37,679 nt of DNA from a virus. This document shows, in pieces, positions 2,954 to 30,671 of this stretch. The stretch covers positions 1-37,679 of IMG/VR virus record IMGVR_UViG_3300021364_000069. One strand, written 5' to 3'. The first letter of the stretch is position 1; each line of letters opens with the position of its first letter. A program made the translations under genes and the position numbers. The notes below the pieces were generated by a model that worked only from the letters and a program-made list of their open reading frames with translations, had not been told where the DNA came from and made no database searches.

Positions 2954-2956
2954 ATA
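2949..2956 (+). promoter_or_regulatory. Late promoter, CATAAATA
   Basis: The octamer matches the T4/cyanophage late consensus NATAAATA. By analogy transcription would start near 2962, just before the AAGGAG ribosome site (2963-2968) of the gene at 2974. The TAA stop of the spike gene (2951-2953) lies inside the octamer. Confidence 0.7.
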
Positions 2957-2973
2957 TTGTATAAGGAGAACAT

Positions 2974-4134: not shown

Positions 4135-4135
4135 A

Positions 4136-4570
4136 ATGGCAACTACAGATAGACAACTTTACAAAACAACAAACATAAGCGGCGAAACAACAACTATCCC
4201 TGCATCTAAAAGATACAGAGGCATAAGCACAGTTACACCAAATAAAACAGCATCGCTATATGATTTGCAATTAATCAAACAAGATATTATAAATCACTTT
4301 CATATACGTCAAGGCGAAAAGCTAGAAAATCCTACTTTTGGCACAATTATTTGGGACATACTGTTTGAGCCTCTTACCGAAGGCCTAAAAGACGCAATTA
4401 TTCAAGATGTTACTAACATAATAAACTATGATCCTAGAGTAACTGCTAGCAATGTTCTTATTGATGAATATGAAACAGGATTGCAATTAACCTGTGAAAT
4501 AACTTACTTGCCATACAACATTAGCGAAACTTTACAGTTAAAATTTGACCAAAGTATTGGTTTAAATTAA
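4136..4570 (+). CDS. 25: Baseplate wedge subunit, gp25-like (GPW/gp25 family)
   Basis: 144 residues, the usual size for T4 gp25 and its relatives in contractile injection systems. After a ~40-residue N-terminal extension the family core is clear: a helix reading YDLQLIKQDIINHFHIRQ, then GEKLENPTFGTIIWDILFE (the conserved R.GE....P.FG element), then helices leading to YDPRV and two C-terminal strands. In the family this protein joins the sheath start to the gp6-gp7 wedge core. It begins 1 base after the preceding stop, with AAGGG at 4125-4129, and is followed by a late promoter and the gp6-like gene. Confidence 0.93.
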   Translation: MATTDRQLYKTTNISGETTTIPASKRYRGISTVTPNKTASLYDLQLIKQDIINHFHIRQGEKLENPTFGTIIWDILFEPLTEGLKDAIIQDVTNIINYDPRVTASNVLIDEYETGLQLTCEITYLPYNISETLQLKFDQSIGLN

Positions 4571-4592
4571 AACTACGCACTTTATTAACTCA

Positions 4593-4600
4593 GATAAATA
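4593..4600 (+). promoter_or_regulatory. Late promoter, GATAAATA
   Basis: Exact NATAAATA octamer in the 53-base gap between the gp25-like and gp6-like genes. Predicted start is near 4606, leaving a short leader with an AAGGA ribosome site at 4612-4616 before the ATG at 4624. Confidence 0.72.
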
Positions 4601-4623
4601 TCATATAAAGCAAGGATAAATCT

Positions 4624-7600
4624 ATGGCAAGCACCGAACGTCAAAATAGACTGCTATTAGCAGAAGACTGGAAAAGAGTCTATCAAAGTTTCAAATATGC
4701 AGATTTTCAAAGTTATGACTTTGACAACCTGCGTAGGACAATGATAAATTACATACGTCAAAATTACCCAGAAGATTTTAACGATTACATCGAAAGCAGC
4801 GAATACCTTGCTCTAATTGATTTGATTGCTTTCCTAGGACAAAACTTAGCGTTCCGTGCCGATCTCAATGCTAGAGAAAACTATCTAGAAACTGCTGATC
4901 GTAGAGAAAGTGTGCTTAGACTAGCAAGACTTATAAGTTACAACGTAAAGCGAAATCAGCCAGCTTCAGGACTGTTAAAAATTGAAAGTATTTCTACTAC
5001 AGAAAATATTATTGACAGCAACGGACTTAACCTTTCAACCCAGTCAGTTCTATGGAATGATAGCACTAACGGCGATTGGTTTGAACAATTTACTAGAATT
5101 ATGAACGCTGCATTGCCAGTGACTAATAAATTTGGACGTCCTATAAAAATTGCTACAATACAAGGTGTAACTACAGAACAATATAGATTTAATTCTAACA
5201 GTGCAAACTTGCCAGTTTTTGGTTTTAACAAGCCAATTGATAGCCAAGGAATTAATTTTGAAGTTGTAAGTGCAAATATCGACGACGAGTCAATATACGA
5301 AGAAGCACCGTTGCCTAGTAACAGATTAGGGTTTTTATACAGAGATGACGGCCAAGGTCCCGGCAGCAACAATACAGGATTTTTCTTCCATTTTAGACAA
5401 GGTAAATTAAAAAACAATACTTTTGAAATTGCTACGTCTGTGCCTAATACTACTATCAATATTGATAATGATAATATCAATAACAGTGATGTATGGCTTT
5501 ACAAATTAGATAGCAATGGTGCAGAAAGTGAACTTTGGGAAAAAGTAGATAATGTTGAAGGAAACAATATAATTTACAACAGTGTATCTAAAGGTATACG
5601 TAATATTTTCACAGTGTTAACTAGAATAAATGATCAAATCAGTTTAATATTCAGTGATGGAACATTTGGCGAAATTCCAAAGGGTAATTTTAGAGCTTAC
5701 TATAGAGAAAGTGCAAATATAGAATTTACTGCAACACCAAACGATCTTTTCGGTATAAACATCAAAATTCCTTATGTAAGTGCAACTGGAAAAACTGAAA
5801 CAGTTAGCATGACTCTTGCATTGCAAGAAACTATATCAAATGCAGCAACCAGCGAAAGCAGTGACAGTATAAAACAGAATGCACCAGCAACTTATTATAC
5901 TCAAAACAGATTAATAACAGGTGAAGATTATAACATTGGCGCACTTAATGTATTACAGGATATAATAAAAACAAAAGCAATCAATAGAACCAGTAGCGGT
6001 ATTAGTAGATACTATGATCTAAGAGATGCAACTGGAAAATACAGTAATACTTTGCTGTTTGGAAATGATGGCATTCTGTTTAAAGAAGTATTAGACAAAG
6101 ATCAAACATTTGACTTTATTACAAAAACAGATATCGAAGGGGTGATAGAAAATACTATCGAACCTATGTTAAGAAATACTAGATTAAAAAATTATTACTA
6201 TGATAATTTTCCTCGCAACGAACAGATTACAAATCTTAACATTGTATGGAACTTAACAACATTCGATACAAACAGAAGCACAGGGCTTTTTCTAGATTCA
6301 AATGATTTTGAAGTTCAAGTTTCTAGCTTTACTACAAGTATTTTAAAATTTGTAGAACCGGGCAGTCTAATTAAATTTACAGCACCTGATGGTTATCACT
6401 TTATGGAAGATAACACACTTATGTTAGGAGCAGCAGATCACTTGGGTGCCCGTGATTATATTTGGGTTAAAGTTATTAGTGTCGAAGAAGATGGCACTGT
6501 TATTAGTCCTGACACTGGACTAGGCCCTATTGTTTTAAATGATCGTGTGCCTACAGGATGTAAAATACAAGAAATTATTCCAATATTTAATGATGAAATT
6601 TCTGTAGATGTTTCAAGACAACTAGTGGATCAAATTTTTGCCTATAAAACATTTGGATTACGTTATGATGTATCACTGAGACAATGGCGTATTATTATAA
6701 ATGAAAACCTCAATGTTGCAGATGACTTTAGTTTAGGTAAACAAGGCGATGTCACAGGAGAAACTTTAGATAGCAGTTGGTTGTTATTGTTTGAAACAGA
6801 CGGTAGGAAATACAATGTCAAAAGCAGAGGAACACGATATGTGTTTGAAAGCGCCGACGACATAAGATTCTTCTATGACAGTAGCGATAGGATTTACGAC
6901 AGCAAAACTGGGCGTATTGTAAAAGACACAATAAAAGTTTTAAACATCAATAACCAACCAGATAGTTTAAGTCCTTTTACAGTAGACTGGACATGGAAGA
7001 TTGATAAAGAATTTAAAAATGTAGCAGGATATATCAATAGCAAAAAAATAGAATTAAGTTTCTTTGATTCAGATGACGACGGCGTTGTAGATGATCCAGA
7101 TGTATTTGAGCATTTGATTGCACCGTCTACAAATTCAGATACAAAATATATATTTGAGAAAAAAGCAATTATCAACAGGACAGAAACATACAATTACATT
7201 TCTGCAACAGAAGCAAATATAGCAGTAATTGCATCAGAATCTGTAGCCAATCCGTTAAGTCAATGGGCAGACGGAAAAGTGTTTTATATTCCTAATAGAG
7301 ATGTATTTTTAGTTTATAACCAAAGTGCAAACAAATTAGAATATACAAATCAATACAAAGCATTTGTAGGTAGAGATAATCTAAAATTTGAATATAGTCA
7401 TGCAGCAGATGAAAATGCTAGAATTGATCCTAGCAGCAGTAATTTAATTGATGTTTATTTACTGACACAAGGTTATGACACAAATTATAGAAATTGGTTA
7501 CAAGGCAAAGTTCAAAACATGCCACTGCCACCTAGTAATGATCAACTGTTCCTGCAATATGGACAGGATATTAATAAGATAAAAAGCATAAGCGATGATG

Positions 7601-8085
7601 TAATTTATCATCCAACAAAATACAAACCATTGTTTGGGAGCAAGGCTGACGTGGATTTACAAGCAAGTTTCAAAGTAGTTAAAAACAGTGGAAGGGTTGT
7701 AAATGATAATGATGTAAAGTCCAGAGTAATTGATGCAATTAACACTTATTTTGCATTAGAGAATTGGGACTTTGGAGAAACATTTTATTTCCAAGAACTA
7801 GCGGCATATATTACTAACCAATTAGCACCTGATATTGTAAGCATTGTAATTGTTCCAACAGCAGCAAATCAAGTTTTTGGTAGCTTGTTTGAAATAAAAA
7901 GCGAAAATGATGAAATTTTTGTAAGCGCAGCAACAGTAGATGATGTTGAAATTATCGATGCAATTACAGCAAGTAGATTACAAGCCAATGGTGAAGTAGT
8001 TACAAGTGACCAAAGTTTAAATACTGGAGTGCAGAGTGAATCTGCAGACAACGGCGTTATTATTACAAGCACAGGAAATTATTAA
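4624..8085 (+). CDS. 6: Baseplate wedge protein, gp6-like (enlarged)
   Basis: 1153 residues, against 660 for T4 gp6. The N-terminal ~110 residues carry the gp6/baseplate-J-like signature: DLRRTMINYIRQNYPEDF with an N in the second position here, then YLALIDLIAFLGQNLAFRAD, then ARENYLETADRRESVLRLA. Residues about 1030-1100 show the C-terminal element (SRVIDAINTYFALENWDFGE, then QELAAYITNQLAPDIVSIVI). In T4 two gp6 copies clamp gp7 in each wedge and dimerise between wedges to close the baseplate ring. The central ~800 residues are Asp/Asn/Ser-rich, apparently all-beta, and contain extra material relative to T4, including a DSDDDGVVDDPD acidic stretch near residue 820 that could bind calcium. 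The stop overlaps the start of the next gene by one base (TAATG), suggesting coupled translation. Confidence 0.88.
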   Translation: MASTERQNRLLLAEDWKRVYQSFKYADFQSYDFDNLRRTMINYIRQNYPEDFNDYIESSEYLALIDLIAFLGQNLAFRADLNARENYLETADRRESVLRLARLISYNVKRNQPASGLLKIESISTTENIIDSNGLNLSTQSVLWNDSTNGDWFEQFTRIMNAALPVTNKFGRPIKIATIQGVTTEQYRFNSNSANLPVFGFNKPIDSQGINFEVVSANIDDESIYEEAPLPSNRLGFLYRDDGQGPGSNNTGFFFHFRQGKLKNNTFEIATSVPNTTINIDNDNINNSDVWLYKLDSNGAESELWEKVDNVEGNNIIYNSVSKGIRNIFTVLTRINDQISLIFSDGTFGEIPKGNFRAYYRESANIEFTATPNDLFGINIKIPYVSATGKTETVSMTLALQETISNAATSESSDSIKQNAPATYYTQNRLITGEDYNIGALNVLQDIIKTKAINRTSSGISRYYDLRDATGKYSNTLLFGNDGILFKEVLDKDQTFDFITKTDIEGVIENTIEPMLRNTRLKNYYYDNFPRNEQITNLNIVWNLTTFDTNRSTGLFLDSNDFEVQVSSFTTSILKFVEPGSLIKFTAPDGYHFMEDNTLMLGAADHLGARDYIWVKVISVEEDGTVISPDTGLGPIVLNDRVPTGCKIQEIIPIFNDEISVDVSRQLVDQIFAYKTFGLRYDVSLRQWRIIINENLNVADDFSLGKQGDVTGETLDSSWLLLFETDGRKYNVKSRGTRYVFESADDIRFFYDSSDRIYDSKTGRIVKDTIKVLNINNQPDSLSPFTVDWTWKIDKEFKNVAGYINSKKIELSFFDSDDDGVVDDPDVFEHLIAPSTNSDTKYIFEKKAIINRTETYNYISATEANIAVIASESVANPLSQWADGKVFYIPNRDVFLVYNQSANKLEYTNQYKAFVGRDNLKFEYSHAADENARIDPSSSNLIDVYLLTQGYDTNYRNWLQGKVQNMPLPPSNDQLFLQYGQDINKIKSISDDVIYHPTKYKPLFGSKADVDLQASFKVVKNSGRVVNDNDVKSRVIDAINTYFALENWDFGETFYFQELAAYITNQLAPDIVSIVIVPTAANQVFGSLFEIKSENDEIFVSAATVDDVEIIDAITASRLQANGEVVTSDQSLNTGVQSESADNGVIITSTGNY

Positions 8086-11000
8086 TGGCTAAAGACGATA
8101 AAACAGTTCCGCAACCAGACGGCAAAAACTACAAAAGATCATCTGCAGAATTTCTACCGCAGTATTTTAGAACACCAACTAACAAAAAGTTTTTGCAAGC
8201 AACAATAGACCAATTTGTTTCAGACGGGGTTGTTGAAAAAATCAGTAGTTTTGTAGGGAAGAAAGAAGCTAAAGCAGTTTCTATTAATGATACTTACTTG
8301 CCAGAGGTAAGCACTGATCGTGAAAATTATCAGTTAGAGCCATATGCAGTATATAACGATGATCTAGGCAACACCGAATTTAGTGCGGACTATTTAGATT
8401 ACATTGGCCTTGTCAATACATTCAGAGGAAATACAGAAAATCATAGTAAATTAAATGAACAAGAATTTTATGCATGGAACCCGCATATTGATTTTGATAA
8501 GTTTACAAATTTCCGTGAATACTATTGGCTACCGAACGGTCCACAAGAAGTGCCTGTAAGAGGACAGAGTAAAGACGTAATAAGCACCTATACTTTAACA
8601 ACTGTTACTGATGACGACAATACAGCATTGTTGTTTACTCCGGATGGACGCACAAGAAATCCTGAACTTAAATTATATAGAGGACAAACCTATCGTTTTG
8701 AAATTAATGCAGATGGGTATCCTGTAACAATAGCAATTGATAGAAATTTTATTCCTTTTTTATCTAACGAAGATGTTGTAAACGAAGTAAGTGCCGAAAA
8801 CAATATTATAAATGAAATATTTGGACAAACTTTAACTGCATGGGTTGAAGGAATAGATTGGCAAAATGTTAGATTAGAAACAAATGAAATTAATGCTGGC
8901 AAGGGTAGTATTAATATATCTCAGTTTGCTAACCCTGATGTTGTAACCAGTATTGTTAATGTTGCATTTACCAGTTTCCAAGAACAGTGGAATGCTTTGG
9001 TAGATCCATTAATAGATAGTTCTGATTTACTTTGTAAAAACGATTTACAATTGACAAGCACATCTGGTAACGATACTATTATATCGGACCAAATAAGATA
9101 TGATAGGCAAGAATATATTGCAGATGCTAATTTTTCAAATTCTACACTTGCAATTAAAAATACAATTTTTTCTGATGTAGTAAATGAAGTGCTAAAAAAT
9201 TATACCGATCCTGACAGAGCTGAAGTTGAAAAAGCTCTTTACGATGCGGGGCAAATTTCATTAGATACACTGGACTTTAGCTATGCTATCAAATTATACA
9301 ATTTTACAGAACGCAGTGCTCAAGCAATAACACAAGGCGATGAAAATCAATCTTTTGTGTATAATGAAGGTGTTAAATTATTTCCTACACCCATTGAAGG
9401 CGACACAAACGAACTTAGCGATTTTGTAAATCCTGGCTATATTGAGAACGGAGTTTTAGAATTTACTGTTCCGGATAATGCACCTAACGAATTATACTTT
9501 GTAAGTCAAACAAATATTGATACAAGTTGCCGTTTGCGTGTTTACGATATAGAAGAAAATTCGGAGATTGATGTAGAACAGGAAATTATCGGAAAAAAGA
9601 CTTACACTACATCTGCAGGATGGGATTTTTCAAATGGTATGAAAGTTTACTTTATAGGAGACGTTACACCTGCAAAGTATGCTGAAGGATTTTATTATGT
9701 CGAAGGTGTTGGCACTAGTATTAACTTAATACCTGTTAATGAATTGAGTGTGCCTGCAATTTTCACACAAGATACTCAAGTTCCTTTTGATTCGAATGGA
9801 TTTGACAGAGTGCCGTTTAGTGATGCATTAAGTTTTGCTGGGACAAAAGATTATATTGTAATCAATCGCAGCAGTGCAGATAGAAACGGATGGACTAGAT
9901 ACAATCGCTGGTTCCATAAAGATGTTATTCTAAAAAGTGCTGAAATTAATTTACAAGAACAATATGCTTTTGACGAAGCAGCAAGAGCAAAAAGACCTAT
10001 TATAGAATTTGAATCAGGCTTGCGTTTATACAATCACGGAACCAAAGCTAAACAGATTGTTGACCTAGTTGACGATTATACAAAAGATGTTTTTAGCATT
10101 ATCGAAGGCACAATTGGTTATAACGTAGACGGAGTAGATTTAGCAGAAGGTCAGAGAATATTATTTACAGCCGACCCAGATCCGTTTGTATCTGGTAAAA
10201 TCTATGAAGTTAAATTTATTGATCATAATAATAAAAAGAACAGAATTAGCCTTGTAGAAACAGCTGACACTGATCCTGCTGTTGACGAAACTGTGCTTAT
10301 CAAAAATGGTAACAATTATGCTGGACGTATGTTCTACTATAATGGTGATACATGGACATTAGCTCAAGACAAAAATGCAATTAATCAATTTCCAAAATTT
10401 GATTTATACGACAAAGATGGTAACAGTTATGGCGATATAGACGTTTATCCATTAACAACATTCAAAGGTAACAACATATTCTCTTACCAAGTAGGCGAGG
10501 GTGTAAATGATACAGAGTTAGGCTTTCCTGTTGTTTATAAAAATCTTGTAAATTCAGGAGATATACTTTTTAACTTTGATATGCTGAAAGAATCTTACAC
10601 ATACGAAGTTGCAGGTGTTACAGTAAATTTAGAAGCAGATGTTGCTTATATCAAAAAATACAATATTGCTGGAGATGAATTTGCCTATGAAAATAGTTGG
10701 AAAAAAGCAAATACAAAAAGCAGTCAATATGTTGTTAGAAAATACACAGGACGTGAACAGGTAAATTCTTTCAAAATAGATTTCTTTAATAACAGTGCTA
10801 GAATACAAGATTTAAAATTAGTTGTATATCATAATAATAAATTAATGATTGAAAACGTTGATTATGAGCAAATCAACATCAATCGTTCGAGATTTGTAGT
10901 TTTTGAAAATGACATAGATTTTGATGATATAGTTATTATAAAAGGAAAAAGTAATCAACCTAAAAATGCAAATGGCTATTATGAAACACCTTATAACTTA

Positions 11001-14000
11001 GAACGCAATCCTCTAAATGATAATATAGAAGAATTTACATATGGACAAGTTGCAGACCATGTTGAAAACTTGATTGTAGAATTACAAGGATTTGAAGGTA
11101 TCCAACCTGGTAGAAATAATCTACGTGATTTAGGATCTGTATATCAATATGGTAGAAAATTTGTTAAACACAGTGGGCCATTGAATTTACCTTTGGTTAA
11201 TTTAGCCAACAAAGATAATAATGTAATCAATGCCATTAGGTTTGCAAAAAAAGAATACAGTAAATTTAAAAGAGATTTTATACAGGTAGCCGAAACACTA
11301 GGTGTTGATACATCAGTAAAACAACACGTCGATTTAATACTTGCAGAATTAAAGAAAAACAAAAGATCAAGTATGCCTTTTTATGATACGGACATGGCAG
11401 GATCTGGCGGATACAATAGATTAGAATATACAGTTTTAGATATTGATGTAAAATACTATGCTTTATCTGCTCCTTATTCTTTATCAATTGAAAATAGAAA
11501 GGCAGTATATGTATACGTAAACGATTTACAAATTTGTTACGGAGTGGATTACACTTTTACTAACGAAGGTTTTGTTTACATAACTAAAGATTTGGCTGTT
11601 GACGATACTATTGAAATTCGTGAATACGAAACCACAGAAGGCAGTTATATACCTCCTACTCCAAGTAAATTGGGTATGTATCCAGCATACAAGCCAGAAA
11701 TATTTGTTGATACAACTTATGTAGATCCTGTAACTGCAATAAGAGGACATGATGGCAGTATCACAATTGCTTATGAAGATTACAGAGATGATTTATTACT
11801 TGAATTAGAGCGCCGTATTTACAATAACATAAAAGTAACTTACGATACCGATATATTTGATATACACGATTATGTCGGTGGAGAACACAGAAATACAGGT
11901 ATATCTAAAGCAGATTTGGATAATGTGTTAATAACTGACTTTGTGTCATGGTTAAGAACAGCAGGTAATGTTGATTACACAGATAACAGTTTTATACAGC
12001 AGTTCTCTACACTAACATACAATTACGGTGCAAGTATAAGCCCAAAAGGAAATCAATTACCTGGATTTTGGAGAGGTGTGTATTTACAAGCATATGACAC
12101 AGATTCGCCTAATCTTCGTCCATGGGAGATGTTAGGATTTAGTGTTCAGCCATCATGGTGGGAGACAGTATATGGTCCAGCACCATATACAAAAGACAAT
12201 TTAATTTTATGGAAAGATCTTGAAAAAGGTATTGTTAGAGAACCAAACAAGCAACCTGTTGTAAGAAAAAAATATCTTAGACCAGGATTAACAAGTGCTA
12301 TTCCTGTAGACGAATCTGGAAGAATTCGTAGTCCGTTAGACAGTTCTTTTGCAAGAGAATTTAGTTTTGCAATATCAAGAAATTTGCTTTTCAAATTTGG
12401 AGATGTAGCACCTGCAGAAGCAGCATGGAGACGCAGCAGTGATTATGCTTTTGCAATCATTATTGCCGCTCTTGCAAATAGACCAGCAGCCGTAACAGGT
12501 TTGTTATATGATCGTAGCAGGGTATCAAGAAACAAAGTAGGAAATTTAATCTATTCAAATACTAATAAAATTATAAAATTAGATAGTTTGGTGTTTCCTA
12601 AAACACAACAAAATGATGTAATAAATTATACAGCCGGTTTAATTGATTATATTCAGGCATATATGCAATCAAGTGTAGATGCAAACTATACAAAATATAT
12701 GACTACTGTAAAAAATCTAGACACTAAAATAGGTTTTAAAGTAGGCGGCTTTGCAGATAAAAACAAACTCCGTATTGTATTAGACAGTAGGACACCTCTT
12801 AATAAAGGCAACGTATTTGTTCCACAAGAAAACTATGATATAGTTCTTAAAAAATCTAGCCCATTGCAGGTAATTTCTTATAGCGGAGTAATTATTGAAA
12901 AAGTTGCAGGTGGATATCGTGTATCTGGTTATGACCAAGAAGATCCGTATTTTTATATTAATCCTGTTCAAATATCAGACGGCGATCCAGCAGTTAATGT
13001 TGGCGGTATAAGCGAAAGTTTCTTAGAATGGGATGAAGGAAAAATATTCGACAAAGGACGAATTGTCGAATATCTAAATTCATACTATAGAGTAACTGAA
13101 ACTCATACCAGTAACGATACATTTGACCAAAGCAAATTTGCTCGTTTAGCTACTCTACCTGTAGTTGGTGGAGCAACTGCAATATTTAGAAAAAACTTCA
13201 GCACTAGTGTTACAAAAATAAACTATGGCACAGTGTATGCAGATATTCAACAAGTTGTGGATTTTCTTTTAGGGTATAATCAGTATTTAGAAAACGTTGG
13301 GTTTGTATTTGATTATAATAATCCGCAGTATGAAGCAGTTGAAAATTTCAATTTGCTTGCTCGTGAATTCTTGTTCTTTACAACTGAAAATTGGGCTGGA
13401 GGAACAGTATTAACTTTAAGTCCTGGAGCAAATCAAATTAAATTTAACACTGATTATTTTACTGTAGATGATATATTTGATAATTTCCTTGGTTACACAA
13501 TCAAGCAAATTGACGGAAGTGTATTGCGTTTTGAATTTACTAATACTGTTAGAGAAGATGGTAACAGTTTTAGTTTGTTTCCTATTAATACAACTGAAGG
13601 CATTTTCTTTTCCAAGCTAACATTGGTGCAAAAAGAACATGTTGTATTAATAGATAATAAAACAGTGTTCAATGATACTATATATGATCCTGCATCTGGC
13701 TATAGACAAGAGCGTATAAAGGTTACTGGATACAGAACAGACGAGTGGGATGGTAGTTTAAACATACCAGGATTTATTTACGACCAGGCTAAGTTTACAA
13801 TATGGGAACCTTGGCAAGATTATAGAGTAGCAGATGTTGTCAAATACAAAGAGTCATATTATTCTGCTAAGTCTAGTTTAAGCGGACAAGCAAATTTTGA
13901 CCCAGAAGAATGGACTTTGTTATCAGAAAAACCAACTGAAAGTGTAAAACCTAACTTTGATTATAGAACAAAACAGTTTAATGACTTTTATGATCTTGAT

Positions 14001-17000
14001 ACAGATAATTTTGATAGCGAACAACAGCGTCTTGCACAGCATTTGATAGGATATCAAAAAAGAGAATATCTATCAAATATAATTACAGACGATGTAAGTG
14101 CATACAAATTTTATCAAGGTTTTATTCAAGATAAAGGCACTCTAAACAGTTTGACTAAACTGTTTGATAAATTAGGCAGTGCTGAAAAAGATAGTTTAGA
14201 GTTTTTCGAAGAATGGGCATTTAGAACTGGACAATATGGTGCAACTGATGCATACAAAGAAGTTGAATATCAACTAGACGAATCTAAATTTAGAATTGAA
14301 CCTCAAACTATAGAATTAGTCCAAACAGTTGATGATACAAGAACAGACCTAGTATTCCAGTATCCTGTTAAGGATGTGTTTATTAAAGAACCTGATTATA
14401 ATCATGCACCATTTCCTACTACATGGACAACAGATCAAGTTACAAAGACAGGCGGATATGTAAGTTTAGACCAAATAGACTTTATTAGTAAAACTTTAGA
14501 AGATACTTTAAATTTAGATATTGATTTAATACAAATAGGAAGTATTATATGGGTTCCAGAATTTAAAAATACATGGGATGTATTTGAAGTTATAAATTCT
14601 CCAATTTACATTGAGTCGATTGAAAAAACAGCCAACGGATTTGATGCTATATTCAACACCAATGTAATATTCAGCGAAGGCGACATTGTTGGACTGAAAA
14701 ATATTAACGAAGAATTAGATGGCTTTAGACTTGTAAGAGCTATAAAAGGAAACCGTGCAGAATTTTATACTACACAGCCAATTGCCGACGAATCGCTCGA
14801 CTTAACGGATAGCACATTAGGATCAGTAATTCAATTGTTAAGCAAAAGGGTTGCCGATGTTGATGCTATGAATACAGTAATAACATCCTACGGATTATCA
14901 CCTAATAGCAAGTTTTGGATTGACAATGCAGGCAATGAAAGATATGCAGTTTATCAAAATAATGAAATATTCTTGTCACAGAATACATTTGCAAACAGGC
15001 AAGAAGGAATAACAGATTTTGGCAAATCCTTTGCAGTCAATGGTAGTAACACAATTTTAGCTATAAGCGATACAAATACAAGTGTTTATGTTTACAATAG
15101 ATTCAGTAGTGTTGTAGATTATAGATATGCACAAGAATTAAATCCTTTAACCGATCTATATGATGCAGATTCTAACTTCGGTCAGGAAATAGAAATTACT
15201 GCTGACGGAAATTGGTTGATTGTAGGTGCTCCTACAGCTACAAATGTTAAAACAAACTACAAAGGTGAAATACAACAAACTTCATATGTTGCTGGAGATA
15301 TTGTTAGCGACGGTGGGTTGTTCTTCAGAGCAATACAAGACATAAACTTTGATAGCAGCACTATAAACACACAATCTCAAGATTGGGAACAAGTCAACGC
15401 AATAGAAGCAATTGAAACAGGAACAGGTAGCGGACTTAACGATCAAGGCGCTATACATATCTACAGAAGACAAACAGATAATAGTTTTGCAATTCATCAA
15501 ACTATTGTTTCGCCTTATCCTCAAGCAGACGAAAAGTTTGGTATTGCTATAAAAACATCTTTTGATAAAAATACATTAAACACTAGACTGTATGTTAGAA
15601 GCGAGAAAAACAATGGTAGATTGTATTTCTTAGATTTACCTAGCATTAATAGCAATTTTGGTTACAGTAGAGATCCTTTATACAGAGGCAAGTTTGATGC
15701 TAATGTAAAATACATAGCGGGAGAGATTGTAGAAGATAATACTGTAATTTACACTGCTAAACAAACAGTGCCAGCAGGCAATCCTTTTAATCCTGATCAT
15801 TGGGATGTTACAAGTAGCAATATTGATAGACTTGGTTATGTTCCGATATTATCAGATGAAAATGTATTAGCTGGATTAGATGATAGCACAGCATTTGACA
15901 GTAATGTTAGAATTGCTGAAAACTTTGATGTTACTGACAACGGAGAAGTATTAGCAATAACAAGTCTTACTAGCACCAATGAATATAAGATAACAATTTA
16001 TAGAAAAATAGAAGACAGACTTGCAATACATCAAACTATAAATGCAAGCGAACTAAACATTGGCTTTGGACACTCAATAAGTTTAAACTATGACGGAAGT
16101 TTACTTGCAGTAGGTGCTATGGAAGCTGATGACCAAGGAACAGATATTGGTAAAGTATTTGTATTTAAATACAATACTGACACATTAGAGTTTGATTTAC
16201 ATCAAGAGCTGTTTACTCCAACACCAAACAGAAACGAAAAGTTTGGATGGCAGGTAGATTTTAGTGAAGACAAACTAGCAGTAACAGCAATAAATGGATT
16301 AAATGAAGAAACATATTTGTTTGATAGTAATCAAACAGTTTTTGACAGTGAATCTACAAAGTTTGTAGATAAAATACCTAATCGTTTAGAAATATACGTT
16401 TACGAAAATATAAACAATAAATTTGTTTATGCAGAAACAATAGATTATTATTATAGATATATTGATGTATCTGGACAGCAAGCGACAGCAAGATTAAATG
16501 ATGCATATGATCCAAGAATTATATTCAATAAAAATCATGTAATGCTAAGTCTGCCAACTGCATCTTTAGATGATACAGATACCTTATATGGTGCAGTATT
16601 TGATTTAGTAGGCACACAAAATGTAGATAGTTGGGAACTGTTAAGTTCACCTAAGGATTTTGTTGATTACGAAAAATTAAAAGGTGTGTTTTTGTATGAT
16701 AAAGACACTGGCGACCTTATTACATATCTTGATGTAATTGATCCAATTCAAGGTAAAATAGCAAATGTAGCAGAGCAAGAAATCAGTTACAAGTTATATT
16801 ATGATCCAGCAGTATACAATACAGGTAGCACTGATACTGGTATAAAAAATCCTTGGACAAATAATTATGTAGGAAAACTATGGTGGAATATTAGCACTGT
16901 TAAATGGTTTGATCCTTATAATGGTAATATTACCAGTCAAAACAACAAATGGAATAATCTAATTCCAAGTTTTGAAGTAGATGTTTATGAGTGGGTAGAA

Positions 17001-20000
17001 AGTCCATATATTCCTAGCGAATGGGACGATATAAGCGATACCAGTGCAGGATTAGCCGAAGGTATAAGTGGACTATCTGTATATGGTGATAGCAGATACA
17101 GTGTAGCGCAAACTTACAATGCTGTGTCTGGTAGATTTACTCCAAGATATTATTTCTGGGTAAGAAACAGTAAATTAATTCCTAACATTGCTAATAGAAA
17201 TGTAAGTTGTGAAACAGTAATTAATTTAATCAAAGATCCAGCTAATGCAGGTTATAGATTTATATCACTGTTTAACGATAGAGAGTTTGCAATCCACAAT
17301 TGCAAAAGTCTAATTAGAGGCAAAGACACTATTTTACATTTTGATTATGCTGCTGGCGAATTAAACACTGGTCCGGTTCATAGTCAGTATACTTTACTCA
17401 CAGAAGGCGTAGAAACAAGCGAACCAAATGATATATTAGTTGAAAAATGGTTTGATAGCTTGATAGGTTACGATAGCAAAAATAACAAACTGCCAGATTT
17501 ATCAGTAAGCCCAGCTAGACGTTATGGCATATTGAATGAGCCTCTACAAACGATGTTTGTGAATAAGACTGAAGCACTGAAGCAAGTTGTAGAAAGAGCA
17601 AACAGAGTTTTAAGTGAAAACTTAATTGTTGACGATTTTGATTTAACTCCGTTAAACGCAATTGATCCTTTGCCAACAGATGTTTCTGGACTATATGATG
17701 AAAAAGTTGACAATGAATCTCTGCTTAGATTTGTAGGCACAAGCAAAACAGAACAAGCTGAACTTTCTGTAACTTTGACCGATGGAAGACTAACAGGTGT
17801 TACTATTGTAAATCCTGGTCGCGGTTATAAAGATCCTGCTTATAACAGTTCTACTGATACTTTCCGTAGAGGACCTAAAGTTGAAATACTTGGTTCGGGT
17901 TCTGGTGCAGAAATCAAAACACGCATTAATAACTTGGGACAAATTATTTCAGCAACTGTTGAAAAATCAGGCGAAGGTTATACTAGCGATGTGACTGTAA
18001 TTGTAAGACCATTTACAGCCTTAGTAGCTAATGATAGCACAATTGGCGGTTTTTGGGCAACATATAATTGGAATAGAACAGCACAAGAATGGTTTAGAGT
18101 TGATATTCAATCGTTTGATACAACATTTTATTGGCAATACAAAGACTGGTTTAAAAGCGGTTATTCAATTGCAACTGCGATAGATCATTTGATTCCGGCT
18201 AGTTATGCATTAGATGGATTAAATGATAACATTGGCGATATTGTAAAAATTGAAAACATCGGTTCAGGCGGCTGGTTGCTACTTGAAAAAATAGACAATG
18301 TGCCCGAAGTTGATTATACAGTTAATTACCAAACAGTTGGCAGACAAAACGGAACAATTCAAATAAGCAAATTGCTTTACAACAATACTGATAGTGGGTT
18401 TGATAATCAAATTTACGATAGTGTTCTTTATGACAGAGAGCCTGTAACAGAAACAAGAAACATTCTTGCTGCGTTAAGAGATAATATATTTGTTGATCAA
18501 TTAAAAATAGAATGGAACAAATTATTCTTTAGCAGTATAAGATACGTGCTTGCAGAACAACCTGTTGTTGACTGGGTATTTAAAACAGCATTTATTAAGG
18601 CAAAGCACAATGTTGGCGAATTAGATCAAAGAATAACTTTCCGCAATGACAATTTAGAAAATTATCAAGATTATGTTGCCGAAGTAAAACCTTACAGCAG
18701 TAAAATAAGAGAATATATTAGCGGATATGAAAAAGTAGATCCTACACAAACCAGTGTAACAGATTTTGATTTGCAACCGAGATACAGCGATTCACAACGC
18801 AAAATTGTTGCAGAAAGTTTAAAAATTACAAACAATGTTGTAGGTCCAATAAATCGCTTTATCGAAACATATCCGCAAAAACATTGGCTTGATAATCTTG
18901 GATTTGAAATTACTGACATAGTAATAGCAGATGGCGGAACTGGATGGACAAGTGGTCCAGTGGTAACTATATCCGGCGGCGGAGGCCCTACAATAGAAGG
19001 ACGAGGTATTATTGCTAGAGGTGTTTTAATAGATATAGAAATCAACACATCGAACGCATTTTATACTAGTGCTCCTGTTGTAACATTTAATGGATCTCAA
19101 TCTGATGAAGGATTGCCTGCATCAGCTGTTGCTATATTAGGAAACAGCAAAGTTAGAAGCACACATATGGCTATTAGATTTGATAGAACATATGGCAAAG
19201 ATATAAACGATACATTATATGATAATATAGATAAACAAGAAACATTTACTGGTAACGCAGGAATCAACGAGTTTACTTTAGAATGGCCAATGGATTTAAA
19301 CATGGCTAATATTCTTGTAGAAGTTGAAGGGGTTGAAAGTTTATCTAGTGAATACACTGTTTATAACAAAGTTGATACATCAAAAGGATTTACAAGATAT
19401 CAAGGTGTAATACAGTTTAATGTAATTCCAGCAACTGGATCTACAATTGTTGTATCTTACAAAATTGCACCTCAATACTTACATGCCGCAGATAGAATCA
19501 GATATCATTACAATCCAACAACCGGTATGTTAGGTAAAGATTTGTCGCAGCTTATGGACGGGGTTGATTTCTCTGGTGTGGAAATTACTAGTATCGATCT
19601 TACTGGTAACCAAGGTTTTGAAACAACCTTATTTGGTGTTGATGCATTTGATACATTTGACACAACATTCAAAGATATTAAGTTTGTAGCAGATGGTAGC
19701 ACCCAAATTATATCACTAGACGAACCATTAGAGGCTGGAGTAACATATACATTATACAAAAATAACGTCAGATTAGATGATGAAAATTACAACCCTGCAT
19801 TGGCTCCAGACGCACAACCTGCTACTGTAACGAATCCTAATGCTGTATTAAGAAGTATTATTGGTGACGGTATTCAAACAGTAATTGATTTAGCAGGTTA
19901 CGATCCAGCTATAGAAACTGTAGCAGGCGATATCATTTATATAAGACGTATTGACAGCGATGGTAGCTTTACACCAGGTGATGCTGCGTTTGATACACAA

Positions 20001-22730
20001 CTTAACGGCGGCGATTTAACAGCCTTTGGCAATGCATACTTGACTGCAACTGGTCAACCTGCAGGTGAAATTGTTGTAGACGGCGATGGGTTTATAACAA
20101 TTAACAATCGCGGTCCTGAAGAACTTGTTCCAGGAACATTGTTTGATACACTTGATATACAAGTATATAATGCTGTAGAGTCAGGACAAGGATTGATTAC
20201 AGTAAATAATTTTGTTGCTGATGGTGTAACTACAAGTTGGCAAGTTTCTCAATTCCCACAGCAAAATTCAAGCATTATTGTAAAAATTGATAATATTGTT
20301 TTAGATAGTGCAGAATATGAGTTTGATTACAAAACAAAAACTGTAAGTATAGCAGATAGCTCACTTGTAGAAGCAAATAAAGTTGTGAGTATTTTAACCA
20401 TAGGTAATAACGGAAATAACATACTAGACAATGATACATTTACAGGCGACAACGAAACTACTACTTTTGAAACAGGAATTACCTATCAAACTCCTTTACA
20501 CTCGCTTGTAACAATCAACGGTGTTGTGGTAGACAACTACAATCTTATTGAGTCGGACAATGGCAAGATTGCAATTGATTTTGGTGGTGCACCAGCAACA
20601 GGCAGTATTATAACATACACAATTTATGCCGGAGATCCTCAACAATACAGTCAAATTATAGTTGATAAATCTTTTGATATAACTGGCGGTAATAGAAGTC
20701 ATAGCTTTAGCGAAATAGGATTTCCATTTTATGAAAAACCTGTAGCAGATAAAATCTTAGTTAAAAAAGGAGACACGTTCCTGAAAGCTCCTTACACAAT
20801 AAAATATGATGTAACCACATCTAGAAACTATGATTTACAAGAATGGGCAATTGACGATATTAACAGTGTTAGAAAAGAAGATATTGTGGTATATTTAAAT
20901 GGCGAAGTGCTGTCTAGAAGGTATTGGATTTACGATAGATTAAATTATAGAATTAATCTCCTACAATATAATATAGGTGTGCCGGGCGATACGTTACAAA
21001 TAAATGTTATTAAGGACGCTGAATATACATTTATTAATACACAATTAACAATCAAAAGTTCAGAAAATTTAAATGGTCCTGCATTTGAAATCACTCCAGG
21101 CGAATTTATAAACTTTGAATTTTCAGACAGTTCAAATGTTGCTGGCACAGTGGTTAGTAAAACTATAGGTGAAAACAACAAAGAAACAATTATTAAAATG
21201 CAAGGATATCAGAGAAACTTTATTTTCCATTATCCAGAACTAGATACTTTTGCTATTGATAATGTGTCAAATGCTAACCCTGCTGTTTTATCTACAATAG
21301 GTGAACATTCGTTACAAACAGGTGATAAAATAGTAATTGAAAATGTTGTAGGCATGACAGAATTAAATGAAAATACATATTATGTTAATGTTATTGATAC
21401 ACAAAATGTAGAACTGTATCTCGACGTTGCCTTAACAAACACTGTTAACAGCATAGGCTTTACACCTTATACACAGTTTGGTATTGCAAGTATCTTAACA
21501 TCAAATGATGTAAAAATAACAAGTTATGTAAATCAACAACTGATCGAATTTGATGGAGAGTTACAAAACATTGAATTTTTAAACGAAGATGTTTTAACTC
21601 TAAGAGACGAAATACTTGATCCTGTAGAGATTTTTGTATTCTCAAATCACGATGTAAATGACTTTACTAGAACCATCTACAGCTTAGATTATAATAGTAA
21701 TAGATTGCCAGAGGATAGCCAAGGATACTTAGATAGAAACTTGTTAACCAGAGGTTACATTAGACTTAACAAGCCGGCTGTAGATCAGCAATATGTTTGG
21801 GTAATCTTTAATGGTGTATTGCTAACACCAGAAGTTGATTACAAAGTTGTAAATGATAAAACAGGTGTCCAGCTAAATCAAACATTGCAAGATTCAGACC
21901 ATGTAGAAGTGTTGCAATTTGGAGGAAATGTTTCGGAACCAAAGTTTGCGTTTAGACAATTTAAAGATATGCTAAACAGAACACACTTCAAAAGAATTAA
22001 TGAAGACAAAGCATATAAATTAGCTCGTGATTTAAATTATTACGATCAGTTTATAGAATTAGAAAGCACTGAAGGTATAGACGAACCAAGTCCGGATAGA
22101 GGAAAGAATATTCCAGGCGTGCTTTGGGTGAAAGGCGAAAGAATAGAATATCTAGTTAAAGAAGGAAACTTCTTAAGACAGCTTCGTAGAGGAACGCTTG
22201 GCACAAGTATTAACAACACACTTACAAAAGGCGAAAAAATATACAGTCAAGGAATAGCAGAAACAATTCCTTACAAAGATGAAATCAGAAAAGACATGAA
22301 AATTGGCGATGGAACATCGTTTGAATTTGAATTAGATTTTGATTTATGGAGTATTGCACTTGATTATTATACAAAATTTGAAAGTGTATATAGAGATCCT
22401 TCGAGAACATTAGACGAGATTTTAGGAGATATTGCTGCTAATTTTGTTGATGTTTTTGTCGCAGGAAGAAAGTTACGTAAAAATTCTATTTCGGTGTTTG
22501 ACATAACAAGAGCACAAGATAGCACAGACGGTGATGTAATTGTTGATCCTGAATTTACAATTAGCAGTAACAACATTATTACTTTACAAAATATTCCAGC
22601 AGATTTGCAAACAATACAAATTGTAAGAAAATCTGGTAAAGTATGGAATGATCCAAACACTCCTTTAGGAGATAGTAATAATAGGATAGCTAATTTTATA
22701 ACAGGTGCAACAAGTAAGTTACCCCGATAA
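8085..22730 (+). CDS. Giant modular baseplate/tail structural protein, 4881 aa
   Basis: One uninterrupted frame of 14.6 kb. The start ATG overlaps the gp6-like stop. Residues 1-150 (LPQYFRTPTNKKFLQATIDQ, then FTNFREYYWLPNGP) and about 1980-2080 (QRLAQHLIGYQKREYLSN, KFYQGFIQDKGTLNSL) resemble segments I associate with large structural proteins of marine T4-like phages. The slot after gp6 is that of the gp7 wedge initiator (1032 aa in T4), but no clear gp7 alignment can be claimed. Visible modules: four chitin-binding CBM5/12-like segments (about 1646-1692, 1905-1949, 2398-2439, 2533-2579); an FG-GAP/beta-propeller-like region (about 2300-2850); two stretches of GxGYxxxPxV-type repeats (3229-3309, 3606-3686); repeated beta-sandwich units with FxGDGxTTxF and VNGxxxxxYxx patterns (about 3719-4316); an FCCH-like module (4388-4466); a GERIEYLVKEGNFLRQLRRG motif (about 4680-4705). 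No signal peptide or membrane span is seen. Probably a baseplate-anchored rod carrying glycan-binding modules; function inferred. Confidence 0.75.
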   Translation: MAKDDKTVPQPDGKNYKRSSAEFLPQYFRTPTNKKFLQATIDQFVSDGVVEKISSFVGKKEAKAVSINDTYLPEVSTDRENYQLEPYAVYNDDLGNTEFSADYLDYIGLVNTFRGNTENHSKLNEQEFYAWNPHIDFDKFTNFREYYWLPNGPQEVPVRGQSKDVISTYTLTTVTDDDNTALLFTPDGRTRNPELKLYRGQTYRFEINADGYPVTIAIDRNFIPFLSNEDVVNEVSAENNIINEIFGQTLTAWVEGIDWQNVRLETNEINAGKGSINISQFANPDVVTSIVNVAFTSFQEQWNALVDPLIDSSDLLCKNDLQLTSTSGNDTIISDQIRYDRQEYIADANFSNSTLAIKNTIFSDVVNEVLKNYTDPDRAEVEKALYDAGQISLDTLDFSYAIKLYNFTERSAQAITQGDENQSFVYNEGVKLFPTPIEGDTNELSDFVNPGYIENGVLEFTVPDNAPNELYFVSQTNIDTSCRLRVYDIEENSEIDVEQEIIGKKTYTTSAGWDFSNGMKVYFIGDVTPAKYAEGFYYVEGVGTSINLIPVNELSVPAIFTQDTQVPFDSNGFDRVPFSDALSFAGTKDYIVINRSSADRNGWTRYNRWFHKDVILKSAEINLQEQYAFDEAARAKRPIIEFESGLRLYNHGTKAKQIVDLVDDYTKDVFSIIEGTIGYNVDGVDLAEGQRILFTADPDPFVSGKIYEVKFIDHNNKKNRISLVETADTDPAVDETVLIKNGNNYAGRMFYYNGDTWTLAQDKNAINQFPKFDLYDKDGNSYGDIDVYPLTTFKGNNIFSYQVGEGVNDTELGFPVVYKNLVNSGDILFNFDMLKESYTYEVAGVTVNLEADVAYIKKYNIAGDEFAYENSWKKANTKSSQYVVRKYTGREQVNSFKIDFFNNSARIQDLKLVVYHNNKLMIENVDYEQININRSRFVVFENDIDFDDIVIIKGKSNQPKNANGYYETPYNLERNPLNDNIEEFTYGQVADHVENLIVELQGFEGIQPGRNNLRDLGSVYQYGRKFVKHSGPLNLPLVNLANKDNNVINAIRFAKKEYSKFKRDFIQVAETLGVDTSVKQHVDLILAELKKNKRSSMPFYDTDMAGSGGYNRLEYTVLDIDVKYYALSAPYSLSIENRKAVYVYVNDLQICYGVDYTFTNEGFVYITKDLAVDDTIEIREYETTEGSYIPPTPSKLGMYPAYKPEIFVDTTYVDPVTAIRGHDGSITIAYEDYRDDLLLELERRIYNNIKVTYDTDIFDIHDYVGGEHRNTGISKADLDNVLITDFVSWLRTAGNVDYTDNSFIQQFSTLTYNYGASISPKGNQLPGFWRGVYLQAYDTDSPNLRPWEMLGFSVQPSWWETVYGPAPYTKDNLILWKDLEKGIVREPNKQPVVRKKYLRPGLTSAIPVDESGRIRSPLDSSFAREFSFAISRNLLFKFGDVAPAEAAWRRSSDYAFAIIIAALANRPAAVTGLLYDRSRVSRNKVGNLIYSNTNKIIKLDSLVFPKTQQNDVINYTAGLIDYIQAYMQSSVDANYTKYMTTVKNLDTKIGFKVGGFADKNKLRIVLDSRTPLNKGNVFVPQENYDIVLKKSSPLQVISYSGVIIEKVAGGYRVSGYDQEDPYFYINPVQISDGDPAVNVGGISESFLEWDEGKIFDKGRIVEYLNSYYRVTETHTSNDTFDQSKFARLATLPVVGGATAIFRKNFSTSVTKINYGTVYADIQQVVDFLLGYNQYLENVGFVFDYNNPQYEAVENFNLLAREFLFFTTENWAGGTVLTLSPGANQIKFNTDYFTVDDIFDNFLGYTIKQIDGSVLRFEFTNTVREDGNSFSLFPINTTEGIFFSKLTLVQKEHVVLIDNKTVFNDTIYDPASGYRQERIKVTGYRTDEWDGSLNIPGFIYDQAKFTIWEPWQDYRVADVVKYKESYYSAKSSLSGQANFDPEEWTLLSEKPTESVKPNFDYRTKQFNDFYDLDTDNFDSEQQRLAQHLIGYQKREYLSNIITDDVSAYKFYQGFIQDKGTLNSLTKLFDKLGSAEKDSLEFFEEWAFRTGQYGATDAYKEVEYQLDESKFRIEPQTIELVQTVDDTRTDLVFQYPVKDVFIKEPDYNHAPFPTTWTTDQVTKTGGYVSLDQIDFISKTLEDTLNLDIDLIQIGSIIWVPEFKNTWDVFEVINSPIYIESIEKTANGFDAIFNTNVIFSEGDIVGLKNINEELDGFRLVRAIKGNRAEFYTTQPIADESLDLTDSTLGSVIQLLSKRVADVDAMNTVITSYGLSPNSKFWIDNAGNERYAVYQNNEIFLSQNTFANRQEGITDFGKSFAVNGSNTILAISDTNTSVYVYNRFSSVVDYRYAQELNPLTDLYDADSNFGQEIEITADGNWLIVGAPTATNVKTNYKGEIQQTSYVAGDIVSDGGLFFRAIQDINFDSSTINTQSQDWEQVNAIEAIETGTGSGLNDQGAIHIYRRQTDNSFAIHQTIVSPYPQADEKFGIAIKTSFDKNTLNTRLYVRSEKNNGRLYFLDLPSINSNFGYSRDPLYRGKFDANVKYIAGEIVEDNTVIYTAKQTVPAGNPFNPDHWDVTSSNIDRLGYVPILSDENVLAGLDDSTAFDSNVRIAENFDVTDNGEVLAITSLTSTNEYKITIYRKIEDRLAIHQTINASELNIGFGHSISLNYDGSLLAVGAMEADDQGTDIGKVFVFKYNTDTLEFDLHQELFTPTPNRNEKFGWQVDFSEDKLAVTAINGLNEETYLFDSNQTVFDSESTKFVDKIPNRLEIYVYENINNKFVYAETIDYYYRYIDVSGQQATARLNDAYDPRIIFNKNHVMLSLPTASLDDTDTLYGAVFDLVGTQNVDSWELLSSPKDFVDYEKLKGVFLYDKDTGDLITYLDVIDPIQGKIANVAEQEISYKLYYDPAVYNTGSTDTGIKNPWTNNYVGKLWWNISTVKWFDPYNGNITSQNNKWNNLIPSFEVDVYEWVESPYIPSEWDDISDTSAGLAEGISGLSVYGDSRYSVAQTYNAVSGRFTPRYYFWVRNSKLIPNIANRNVSCETVINLIKDPANAGYRFISLFNDREFAIHNCKSLIRGKDTILHFDYAAGELNTGPVHSQYTLLTEGVETSEPNDILVEKWFDSLIGYDSKNNKLPDLSVSPARRYGILNEPLQTMFVNKTEALKQVVERANRVLSENLIVDDFDLTPLNAIDPLPTDVSGLYDEKVDNESLLRFVGTSKTEQAELSVTLTDGRLTGVTIVNPGRGYKDPAYNSSTDTFRRGPKVEILGSGSGAEIKTRINNLGQIISATVEKSGEGYTSDVTVIVRPFTALVANDSTIGGFWATYNWNRTAQEWFRVDIQSFDTTFYWQYKDWFKSGYSIATAIDHLIPASYALDGLNDNIGDIVKIENIGSGGWLLLEKIDNVPEVDYTVNYQTVGRQNGTIQISKLLYNNTDSGFDNQIYDSVLYDREPVTETRNILAALRDNIFVDQLKIEWNKLFFSSIRYVLAEQPVVDWVFKTAFIKAKHNVGELDQRITFRNDNLENYQDYVAEVKPYSSKIREYISGYEKVDPTQTSVTDFDLQPRYSDSQRKIVAESLKITNNVVGPINRFIETYPQKHWLDNLGFEITDIVIADGGTGWTSGPVVTISGGGGPTIEGRGIIARGVLIDIEINTSNAFYTSAPVVTFNGSQSDEGLPASAVAILGNSKVRSTHMAIRFDRTYGKDINDTLYDNIDKQETFTGNAGINEFTLEWPMDLNMANILVEVEGVESLSSEYTVYNKVDTSKGFTRYQGVIQFNVIPATGSTIVVSYKIAPQYLHAADRIRYHYNPTTGMLGKDLSQLMDGVDFSGVEITSIDLTGNQGFETTLFGVDAFDTFDTTFKDIKFVADGSTQIISLDEPLEAGVTYTLYKNNVRLDDENYNPALAPDAQPATVTNPNAVLRSIIGDGIQTVIDLAGYDPAIETVAGDIIYIRRIDSDGSFTPGDAAFDTQLNGGDLTAFGNAYLTATGQPAGEIVVDGDGFITINNRGPEELVPGTLFDTLDIQVYNAVESGQGLITVNNFVADGVTTSWQVSQFPQQNSSIIVKIDNIVLDSAEYEFDYKTKTVSIADSSLVEANKVVSILTIGNNGNNILDNDTFTGDNETTTFETGITYQTPLHSLVTINGVVVDNYNLIESDNGKIAIDFGGAPATGSIITYTIYAGDPQQYSQIIVDKSFDITGGNRSHSFSEIGFPFYEKPVADKILVKKGDTFLKAPYTIKYDVTTSRNYDLQEWAIDDINSVRKEDIVVYLNGEVLSRRYWIYDRLNYRINLLQYNIGVPGDTLQINVIKDAEYTFINTQLTIKSSENLNGPAFEITPGEFINFEFSDSSNVAGTVVSKTIGENNKETIIKMQGYQRNFIFHYPELDTFAIDNVSNANPAVLSTIGEHSLQTGDKIVIENVVGMTELNENTYYVNVIDTQNVELYLDVALTNTVNSIGFTPYTQFGIASILTSNDVKITSYVNQQLIEFDGELQNIEFLNEDVLTLRDEILDPVEIFVFSNHDVNDFTRTIYSLDYNSNRLPEDSQGYLDRNLLTRGYIRLNKPAVDQQYVWVIFNGVLLTPEVDYKVVNDKTGVQLNQTLQDSDHVEVLQFGGNVSEPKFAFRQFKDMLNRTHFKRINEDKAYKLARDLNYYDQFIELESTEGIDEPSPDRGKNIPGVLWVKGERIEYLVKEGNFLRQLRRGTLGTSINNTLTKGEKIYSQGIAETIPYKDEIRKDMKIGDGTSFEFELDFDLWSIALDYYTKFESVYRDPSRTLDEILGDIAANFVDVFVAGRKLRKNSISVFDITRAQDSTDGDVIVDPEFTISSNNIITLQNIPADLQTIQIVRKSGKVWNDPNTPLGDSNNRIANFITGATSKLPR

Positions 22731-22756: not shown

Positions 22757-23365
22757 ATGGAAAAAACAAAAGATATACAGGGTGTGCATGTAGAAGGACA
22801 CATAAAAATACACAACCCCGAAACAGGGTTTGTATTTGTGGACAAACGCAACGCAATCCATTATGAAAATATGAGTATAGCATTAGCTGAAAGCCTTGGC
22901 AATGCAGGGCAAGGATTTATATATGAAATGGCGTTTGGAAACGGCGGAACCAGTGTAGATCCTACAGGTATTATCACATATTTAACACCAAATAGCACAG
23001 GAACAAATGCAAGTTTATATAATCAAACATATACAAAAGTTGTAGATGATCGTAGCGTAAATAATGTTGATCCTACCAGAAACAAAATAGAAACAAGACA
23101 CCTAAGCGGAACAAACTACACAGACATATTAGTAACATGTTTGTTAGATTACGGCGAACCAGACGGGCAGGACGCCTTTGATACAGCAAGTGACACAGAT
23201 CAGCAATATGTGTTTGATGAACTAGGCCTTAAAAGTTACTCACCAACTGGAGAAGGCAGATTAATAACACATGTAATTTTCCATCCTGTGCAAAAATCGC
23301 TTAATAGATTAATTCAAATTGACTATACTGTCCGAGTTCAAAGTTTGAGCGGAGGAGTTGATTAA
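22757..23365 (+). CDS. Small virion structural protein, unknown family
   Basis: About 202 residues from the ATG at 22757. An in-frame GTG at 22742 would add five residues, but it overlaps the AGGTGAG element at 22740-22746 that serves the ATG, and it falls at the predicted transcript start. The protein begins with a short strand-rich segment (GVHVEGHIKIHNPETGFVFV) and then a Gly/Asn/Thr-rich body with a YEMAFGNGGTSVDPTG segment, ending in strands (FHPVQKSLNRLIQIDYTVRV). There is no signal peptide, transmembrane segment or cysteine-rich region. Placed between the giant baseplate protein and the tail fibres, it could be a baseplate wedge or fibre-adaptor protein, a slot occupied in T4 by gp8-gp11; I see no direct similarity to those. 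The stop overlaps the next start by one base. Confidence 0.68.
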   Translation: MEKTKDIQGVHVEGHIKIHNPETGFVFVDKRNAIHYENMSIALAESLGNAGQGFIYEMAFGNGGTSVDPTGIITYLTPNSTGTNASLYNQTYTKVVDDRSVNNVDPTRNKIETRHLSGTNYTDILVTCLLDYGEPDGQDAFDTASDTDQQYVFDELGLKSYSPTGEGRLITHVIFHPVQKSLNRLIQIDYTVRVQSLSGGVD

Positions 23366-27587: not shown

Positions 27588-27606
27588 TCGTATTATGCGG
27601 AAATGC

Positions 27607-27614
27607 GATAAATA
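27607..27614 (+). promoter_or_regulatory. Late promoter, GATAAATA
   Basis: Exact NATAAATA octamer in the 49-base gap before fibre 3. Predicted start is near 27620, followed by a GAGGA ribosome site (about 27626-27630) and the ATG at 27637. Confidence 0.72.
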
Positions 27615-27636
27615 ACTAAAAGCACGAGGAGCAAAA

Positions 27637-30639: not shown

Positions 30640-30651
30640 CAGTGTTATACT
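30623..30651 (+). promoter_or_regulatory. Sigma70-like promoter, TTGACA-N17-TATACT
   Basis: A perfect -35 hexamer (30623-30628, inside the last codons of the previous gene), a 17-base spacer and a 5/6 -10 hexamer (30646-30651). An inverted repeat ACAGT/ACTGT (30639-30643 and 30649-30653) overlaps the -10 and could bind a regulator. It lies just upstream of the AGGAAGG ribosome site (30661-30667) of the gene at 30672. No late octamer is present in this gap. Confidence 0.5.
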
Positions 30652-30671
30652 GTAGAAAATAGGAAGGTAAA

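Follow-up and report, generated by a model that had tools for sequence, protein, structure and literature searches.

The contractile baseplates whose structures have been solved contain a heterotrimer of the (gp6)2-gp7 type (PMC10457771, PMC6300606) and therefore an equivalent of gp7 is expected. T4 gp7, P2 gpI, XM1 gp17 and TssG, the partners of gp6 in the wedge, all occupy the position after gp6. The XM1 gp7 orthologue, gp17, has 242 residues; the spikes of this phage attach to its C-terminus and to a loop within its core domain. In the Kyanoviridae, the protein following gp6 is a giant (phrog_4406, phrog_701, phrog_2885), with 3,045 aa in S-CAM3 and 6,817 aa in ACG-2014d. Another set of giants is found in PHROG 10938, which includes Atu_ph07 gp180, AP-J-162 gp58, PA5oct gp355, CBB gp236, 121Q gp582 and RaK2 ORF070. 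In AP-J-162, a wedge protein of 1,198 aa is followed by this structural protein, of 4,455 aa (PMC11242549). Among the protein families of aquatic tailed phages, PHROG 10938 is one of the largest, and its annotation goes no further than 'structural protein'.

Here we analysed a 37.7-kb genome fragment, the IMG/VR record IMGVR_UViG_3300021364_000069 (positions 1 to 37,679; hereafter the window), in which a giant gene is preceded by genes for a hub/lysozyme-type protein, a Gly-rich protein, gp25 and gp6, in this order. The gp25-like wedge/sheath-initiator gene (4136-4570) matches Pfam GPW_gp25 above the cut-off (E=7e-7) as well as phrog_261 and phrog_43, while the gp6-like baseplate wedge gene (4624-8085, 1153 aa) matches phrog_10646 (E=1e-295) and phrog_219 (E=2e-24). 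These two genes and all the features of the giant given below are on the plus strand. The Gly/Ala-rich protein encoded between the hub and gp25 genes contains a 63-bp tandem repeat (3078-3214, 2.2 copies, 97%).

The giant ORF (8085-22730) encodes a virion structural protein of the phrog_10938 family, with 4881 aa and a computed mass of 551 kDa and pI of 4.5. The gp6 stop codon, TAA (8083-8085), overlaps the giant ATG (8085-8087) in the sequence TAATG, with an AGGA about 9 bases upstream of the ATG. The 4,881 codons contain no internal stop, and the chance of so long an open run at the local base composition is about e^-341. Thus, the continuous 14.6-kb frame reported in the earlier note, its overlap with gp6 and its occupation of the slot after gp6 are all upheld, the last in the relatives too. 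The frame might be an assembly artefact, or a fusion confined to this contig, a reading favoured by two relatives (L069 and L018) that carry the giant region as two overlapping frames. We rejected this reading, whose probability is negligible, because another IMG/VR contig (L013), from a different sample, carries a copy that is 99.97% identical over 3,637 aa, and because dozens of full-length single ORFs exist in relatives, including cultured phages. The giant ORF is real. Note that L069 is split at the propeller (frames 7634-14617 and 14455-22398), and that the two frames of L018 are 5407-8952 and 8937-11540; each may be a real split or a sequencing error.

The giant adds a further member to a family of giant tail-baseplate proteins that is large and has already been catalogued. 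Its match to PHROG 10938 ('virion structural protein') has E=0 (1120 bits) and consists of four stretches over the conserved core, and tblastn located homologues in about 60 jumbo-phage records, such as those of RaK2, CBB, 121Q, PA5oct and Atu_ph07. In the ten loci examined, the homologues have 3,313-4,555 aa and their gene lies directly 3' of gp6, in the order gp25-gp6-giant, in all the records except that of SCTP-2 (9/10), where gp6 is about 92 kb from the giant gene. In SCTP-2 (L007, 8530-29321) an uncharacterised protein of 3,096 aa precedes the giant, in place of gp6.

Using the core alignment A1, we also retrieved at least 596 related IMG/VR contigs or stretches. Among the best 80 of these, together with loci from other scans, we found 37 intact single ORFs, whose lengths between stop codons are 3,942-5,060 aa, and one more that is truncated at 2,328; gp6 adjoins the giant in nearly all the IMG/VR loci of this census with gp6 in view. 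In many jumbo and aquatic phages, a member of the family comes after gp6. A length of 4,881 aa is typical among the relatives, which have single ORFs of over 3,300 aa (3313-5060), and proteins longer than this one follow gp6 elsewhere, as the one with 6,817 aa in ACG-2014d. Hence, the description of a single polypeptide holds, as there is one ORF, but not as a peculiarity of the phage analysed, since hundreds of relatives usually share it. Besides the slot and the single giant ORF, the PHROG 10938 members share with our protein the conserved blocks 1-210, 450-2080, 2846-3186 and 3338-3604; in contrast, the helical insert at 229-415, the E1_FCCH-like module and the long C-terminal half, which is variable, are its own.

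Published virion proteomics of the homologues supports a structural role for the giant, by analogy, and gives neither its position nor its copy number. CBB_236, which by inspection of the record is a 3,340-aa gene directly after gp6, was detected in purified virions with 21 peptides (PMC5259590). The phAPEC6 gp245 protein (381.9 kDa), which adjoins the wedge gene gp244, was present in virions with 17 peptides (PMC7247149); we took gp245 as a homologue from its size and neighbour gene. In addition, the database record of PA5oct gp355 carries an ESI-MS/MS note.

The modular build proposed for the giant was confirmed, with CBM_5_12 and FG-GAP_2 above the Pfam cut-offs and cupredoxin-like, E1_FCCH-like and GxGY modules also detected. 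The protein starts with a conserved block, residues 1-210 (8085-8714), which contains an LP-helix at residues 24-50, has 94% coverage in close relatives and is 26-35% identical to the cultured phages. Overlapping its end, residues 155-475 (8547-9509) form a domain of cupredoxin-like (YHYH) type, which an insert divides in two. It has weak Foldseek matches to rusticyanin and laccases, and also matches 'YHYH domain' proteins in BFVD. The insert (residues 229-415, 8769-9329) is all-helical in the AF2 secondary structure. This helical insert of about 190 residues is nearly specific to the phage analysed, the coverage of residues 201-400 in the relatives being only 9-23%.

The family core defined by alignment A1 spans residues 450-2080 (9432-14324); in the relatives, most of it is covered at 96-100%, with identities of 40-60%. 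It carries a CBM_5_12 (chitin-binding type 3-like, Pfam PF02839) module (13026-13118) and a second, CBM_5_12-like one (residues 1904-1940, 13794-13904), for which PF02839 is found in the same slice of 30 out of 75 relatives and which matches modules of chitin deacetylases, and 7b5h_AE and 2rts by fold. Towards the end of the core there is a near-invariant helical segment, residues 1990-2045 (14052-14219), identified in the alignment of 75 relatives. A third CBM_5_12-like module (15693-15773, PF02839 E=3e-4) lies within the FG-GAP repeats, which cover approximately residues 2440-2840 (15402-16604; PF14312 in 3 stretches, E=5e-11). These repeats, variable in far relatives, probably form a beta-propeller.

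Residues 2846-3186 (16620-17642) constitute a second conserved block, 27-30% identical to Atu_ph07, PA5oct and SCTP-2 and with coverage of up to 0.95 in the cultured relatives. This is followed by a GxGY-type beta module (17757-17987), which matches residues 187-252 of phrog_438 (E=9.5e-9) and, by blastp, ACG-2014d, and which is common to the cyanophage giants and gp8 inserts. After a third conserved block (residues 3338-3604, 18096-18896; blastp to PA5oct, RaK2 and GAP32) comes a second, weak GxGY-type module (18909-19160), with E=0.14 to ACG-2014d; the equivalent region of the relative L017 reaches E=3e-9. The E1_FCCH-like module (21246-21482, PF16190) has 6% coverage in the relatives. An enzymatic function was rejected: the Foldseek hits of the models to E1 enzymes seem to reflect a small FCCH-like barrel. 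Finally, residues 4598-4859 (21876-22661) are a conserved C-terminal block, 41.6% identical to PA5oct over 89 aa; part of it aligns with cyanophage residues 63-122 at an HHalign probability of 92%, and in the cyanophage giants this similar module adjoins the first helix. The regions that vary among the relatives are residues 210-450, much of 2100-2850 and 4290-4560. Support for a putative receptor-binding role of the outer parts of the protein comes from its modules, among them the chitin-binding-like, FG-GAP and cupredoxin-like ones.

Does the giant correspond to gp7? In favour of its filling the gp7 slot, a possibility raised in the earlier note, are the position after gp6 and the fact that neither the gp7 profile (phrog_964) nor, above its cut-off, Tail_P2_I had a match in ten cultured jumbo-phage records (nine complete; that of Vibrio 2.275.O partial); thus, no separate gp7 homologue came up by profile in these records. 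However, the profile and fold comparisons did not support it. When the whole protein was cut into 350-aa slices and compared with T4 gp7 by HHalign, nothing rose above the reversed control; Pfam Tail_P2_I had no match in the giant, and phmmer and hmmsearch against the PDB sequences returned no wedge match. The AlphaFold models of residues 1-960 and 1690-2340 (pLDDT of 77 and 75, respectively) produced no wedge fold among the PDB Foldseek matches. In these models, the relevant helices (20-45 and 1958-2033), modelled without their partners, have low pLDDT, which is expected for pieces that fold only within a complex. There is thus no significant profile or fold match to T4 gp7, P2 gpI, XM1 gp17 or TssG, and the giant, with an insert and a C-terminal extension, is 5-28 times longer than these proteins.

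The segment that is near-invariant in the 75 relatives, 'QDKGTLNSLTKLFDKLG', has a KGT motif at residues 2017-2019, and HHalign places the KGT slice in register with the KG(T/I) motifs of the cyanophage giants, P2 gpI and T4 gp7. Among 192 slices it ranked 1 against the cyanophage giants, 1 against gpI and 4 against gp7. Note that in the decoy control the same slice ranked 1-2 in 3 of the 16 decoy segments (and in none of 3 reversed profiles); therefore rank alone is weak and the support from the motif is suggestive only. Regarding the scores, only that of the cyanophage (22.3) was clearly above all the decoys, which reached at most 16.8; gpI (17.6) was marginal and gp7 (16.3) not above them. 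Residues 1-210 ranked 4-6 of 241 slices against cyanophage giant residues 11-40, and residues 1053-1081 scored higher. When HMMs of the KGT segment and the N-terminal block were run against the six-frame DNA of T4, P2, Mu, Det7 and cyanophages, hmmsearch was too insensitive: even the S-CAM3 KGT site was only a second-ranked, sub-threshold match. Residues 1990-2045 are thus a candidate for the start of the gp7/gpI trifurcation domain, and residues 1-210, with the LP-helix, an ambiguous candidate for half of the gp7/gpI core bundle.

The likeness to marine T4-like phages that had been noticed proved correct, as the giant shares modules with the cyanophage giants, which also follow gp6. Together with this slot, both have GxGY modules and the in-register KGT, although the conserved core of the Kyanoviridae giants is not alignable with ours by blastp and their KGT lies near residue 195-710, versus 2017 here. 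In ACG-2014d, the gp7 profile matches the giant after gp6, only at the KGT motif.

Based on the gp7 slot, the ten cultured records that give no match to the gp7 profile and the in-register KGT, we propose that the protein probably fulfils the function of T4 gp7 and in addition carries many surface-binding modules, the link to gp7 being suggestive, not proven. On balance, we think it likely that this baseplate giant of a jumbo/T4-superfamily aquatic phage takes the gp7 place in each wedge, with a core bound to two gp6 and a modular periphery. Short helical pieces of its core, from the N-terminal block, the KGT segment (~1960-2080) or both, would pair with two gp6 and start the wedge. The other ~4,500 residues would make up the outer part of the wedge, with exchangeable modules for binding to surfaces and sugars, and these outer parts would form the periphery of the baseplate, in contact with the cell surface. 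In XM1, the small gp7 orthologue attaches tail spikes at the same two kinds of place as the insertion and the C-terminal extension of the giant, a precedent for the proposed layout; by analogy, these two parts of the giant may replace separate spikes. The binding to gp6, the initiation of the wedge and the binding to receptors are what we infer for the giant. A more specific version, which we hold as a tentative possibility, is that it is a true gp7/gpI homologue whose wedge fold is split, with the N-terminal core helices separated by about 1,950 residues from the KGT segment and the receptor-binding mass placed in the insertion and the C-terminal extension.

Another possibility, unlikely in our judgement, is that the giant is a peripheral protein of the baseplate or fibre network that binds gp6, while a small protein that went unrecognised acts as the wedge initiator. 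The absence of fold or profile matches to gp7 would fit this, as would the many uncharacterised virion proteins of relatives such as Atu_ph07 (PMC6102473) and the unlinking of the giant from gp6 in SCTP-2. Yet outside SCTP-2 the synteny is strict, no other gp7 candidate emerged by profile in the ten cultured records, the gp7 profile does match cyanophage giants of the same slot and the KGT match is in register. If the giant is the gp7 equivalent, the missing gp7 of the jumbo phages would be explained, and one wedge protein could take up hundreds of kilodaltons of receptor-binding modules. The gp7-like model also provides a precise, testable basis for structural work on the cultured relatives.

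The earlier note had gone further, suggesting that one polypeptide could combine what T4 splits over gp7 to gp11. A T4 wedge contains one gp7, two gp8, three gp10 and three gp11, which add up to 465 kDa, close to the 551 kDa of one copy of the giant, and gp8 was undetected elsewhere in the jumbo relatives. The profiles of gp8, gp9, gp10 and gp11, however, gave no match in the giant apart from the GxGY module that cyanophage gp8 carries as an insert (gp11, phrog_963, was looked for by the PHROG scan of the protein only), and no gp8, gp10 or gp11 segment was recognisable by these searches. Moreover, PA5oct retains a separate gp10-like gene, gp358; in ACG-2014d separate gp8 and gp9 genes follow the giant; and gp10 and gp11 are trimeric in T4, so a single chain would need internal repeats. 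The replacement of gp7, gp8, gp10 and gp11 by one polypeptide is thus highly improbable, and we rejected the fusion of gp8-gp11; the likeness to these proteins is limited to a role in the outer wedge, proposed by analogy.

Downstream of the giant there are three consecutive genes (23365-29172; 685, 722 and 511 aa) whose N-terminal regions are 32-39% identical over 176-269 aa and whose C-termini differ (Collar-like, E1_FCCH-like and weakly Peptidase_G2-like). From their sequences, they are probably paralogous fibre proteins with a shared attachment domain. The E1_FCCH-like module of the second (27135-27371, in gene 25419-27587) is 44% identical to that of the giant (blastp E=1e-14). The module is present in both proteins, yet in few relatives of the giant, and a module exchange is therefore probable. 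Two adjacent paralogous genes, of 476 and 349 aa with 25% identity, follow at 29209-31721. Beyond the fibres, the region 32131-37677 contains radical SAM, TauD-like oxygenase and uncharacterised genes; several radical SAM genes likewise lie downstream of the giant in Atu_ph07 and Phosso.
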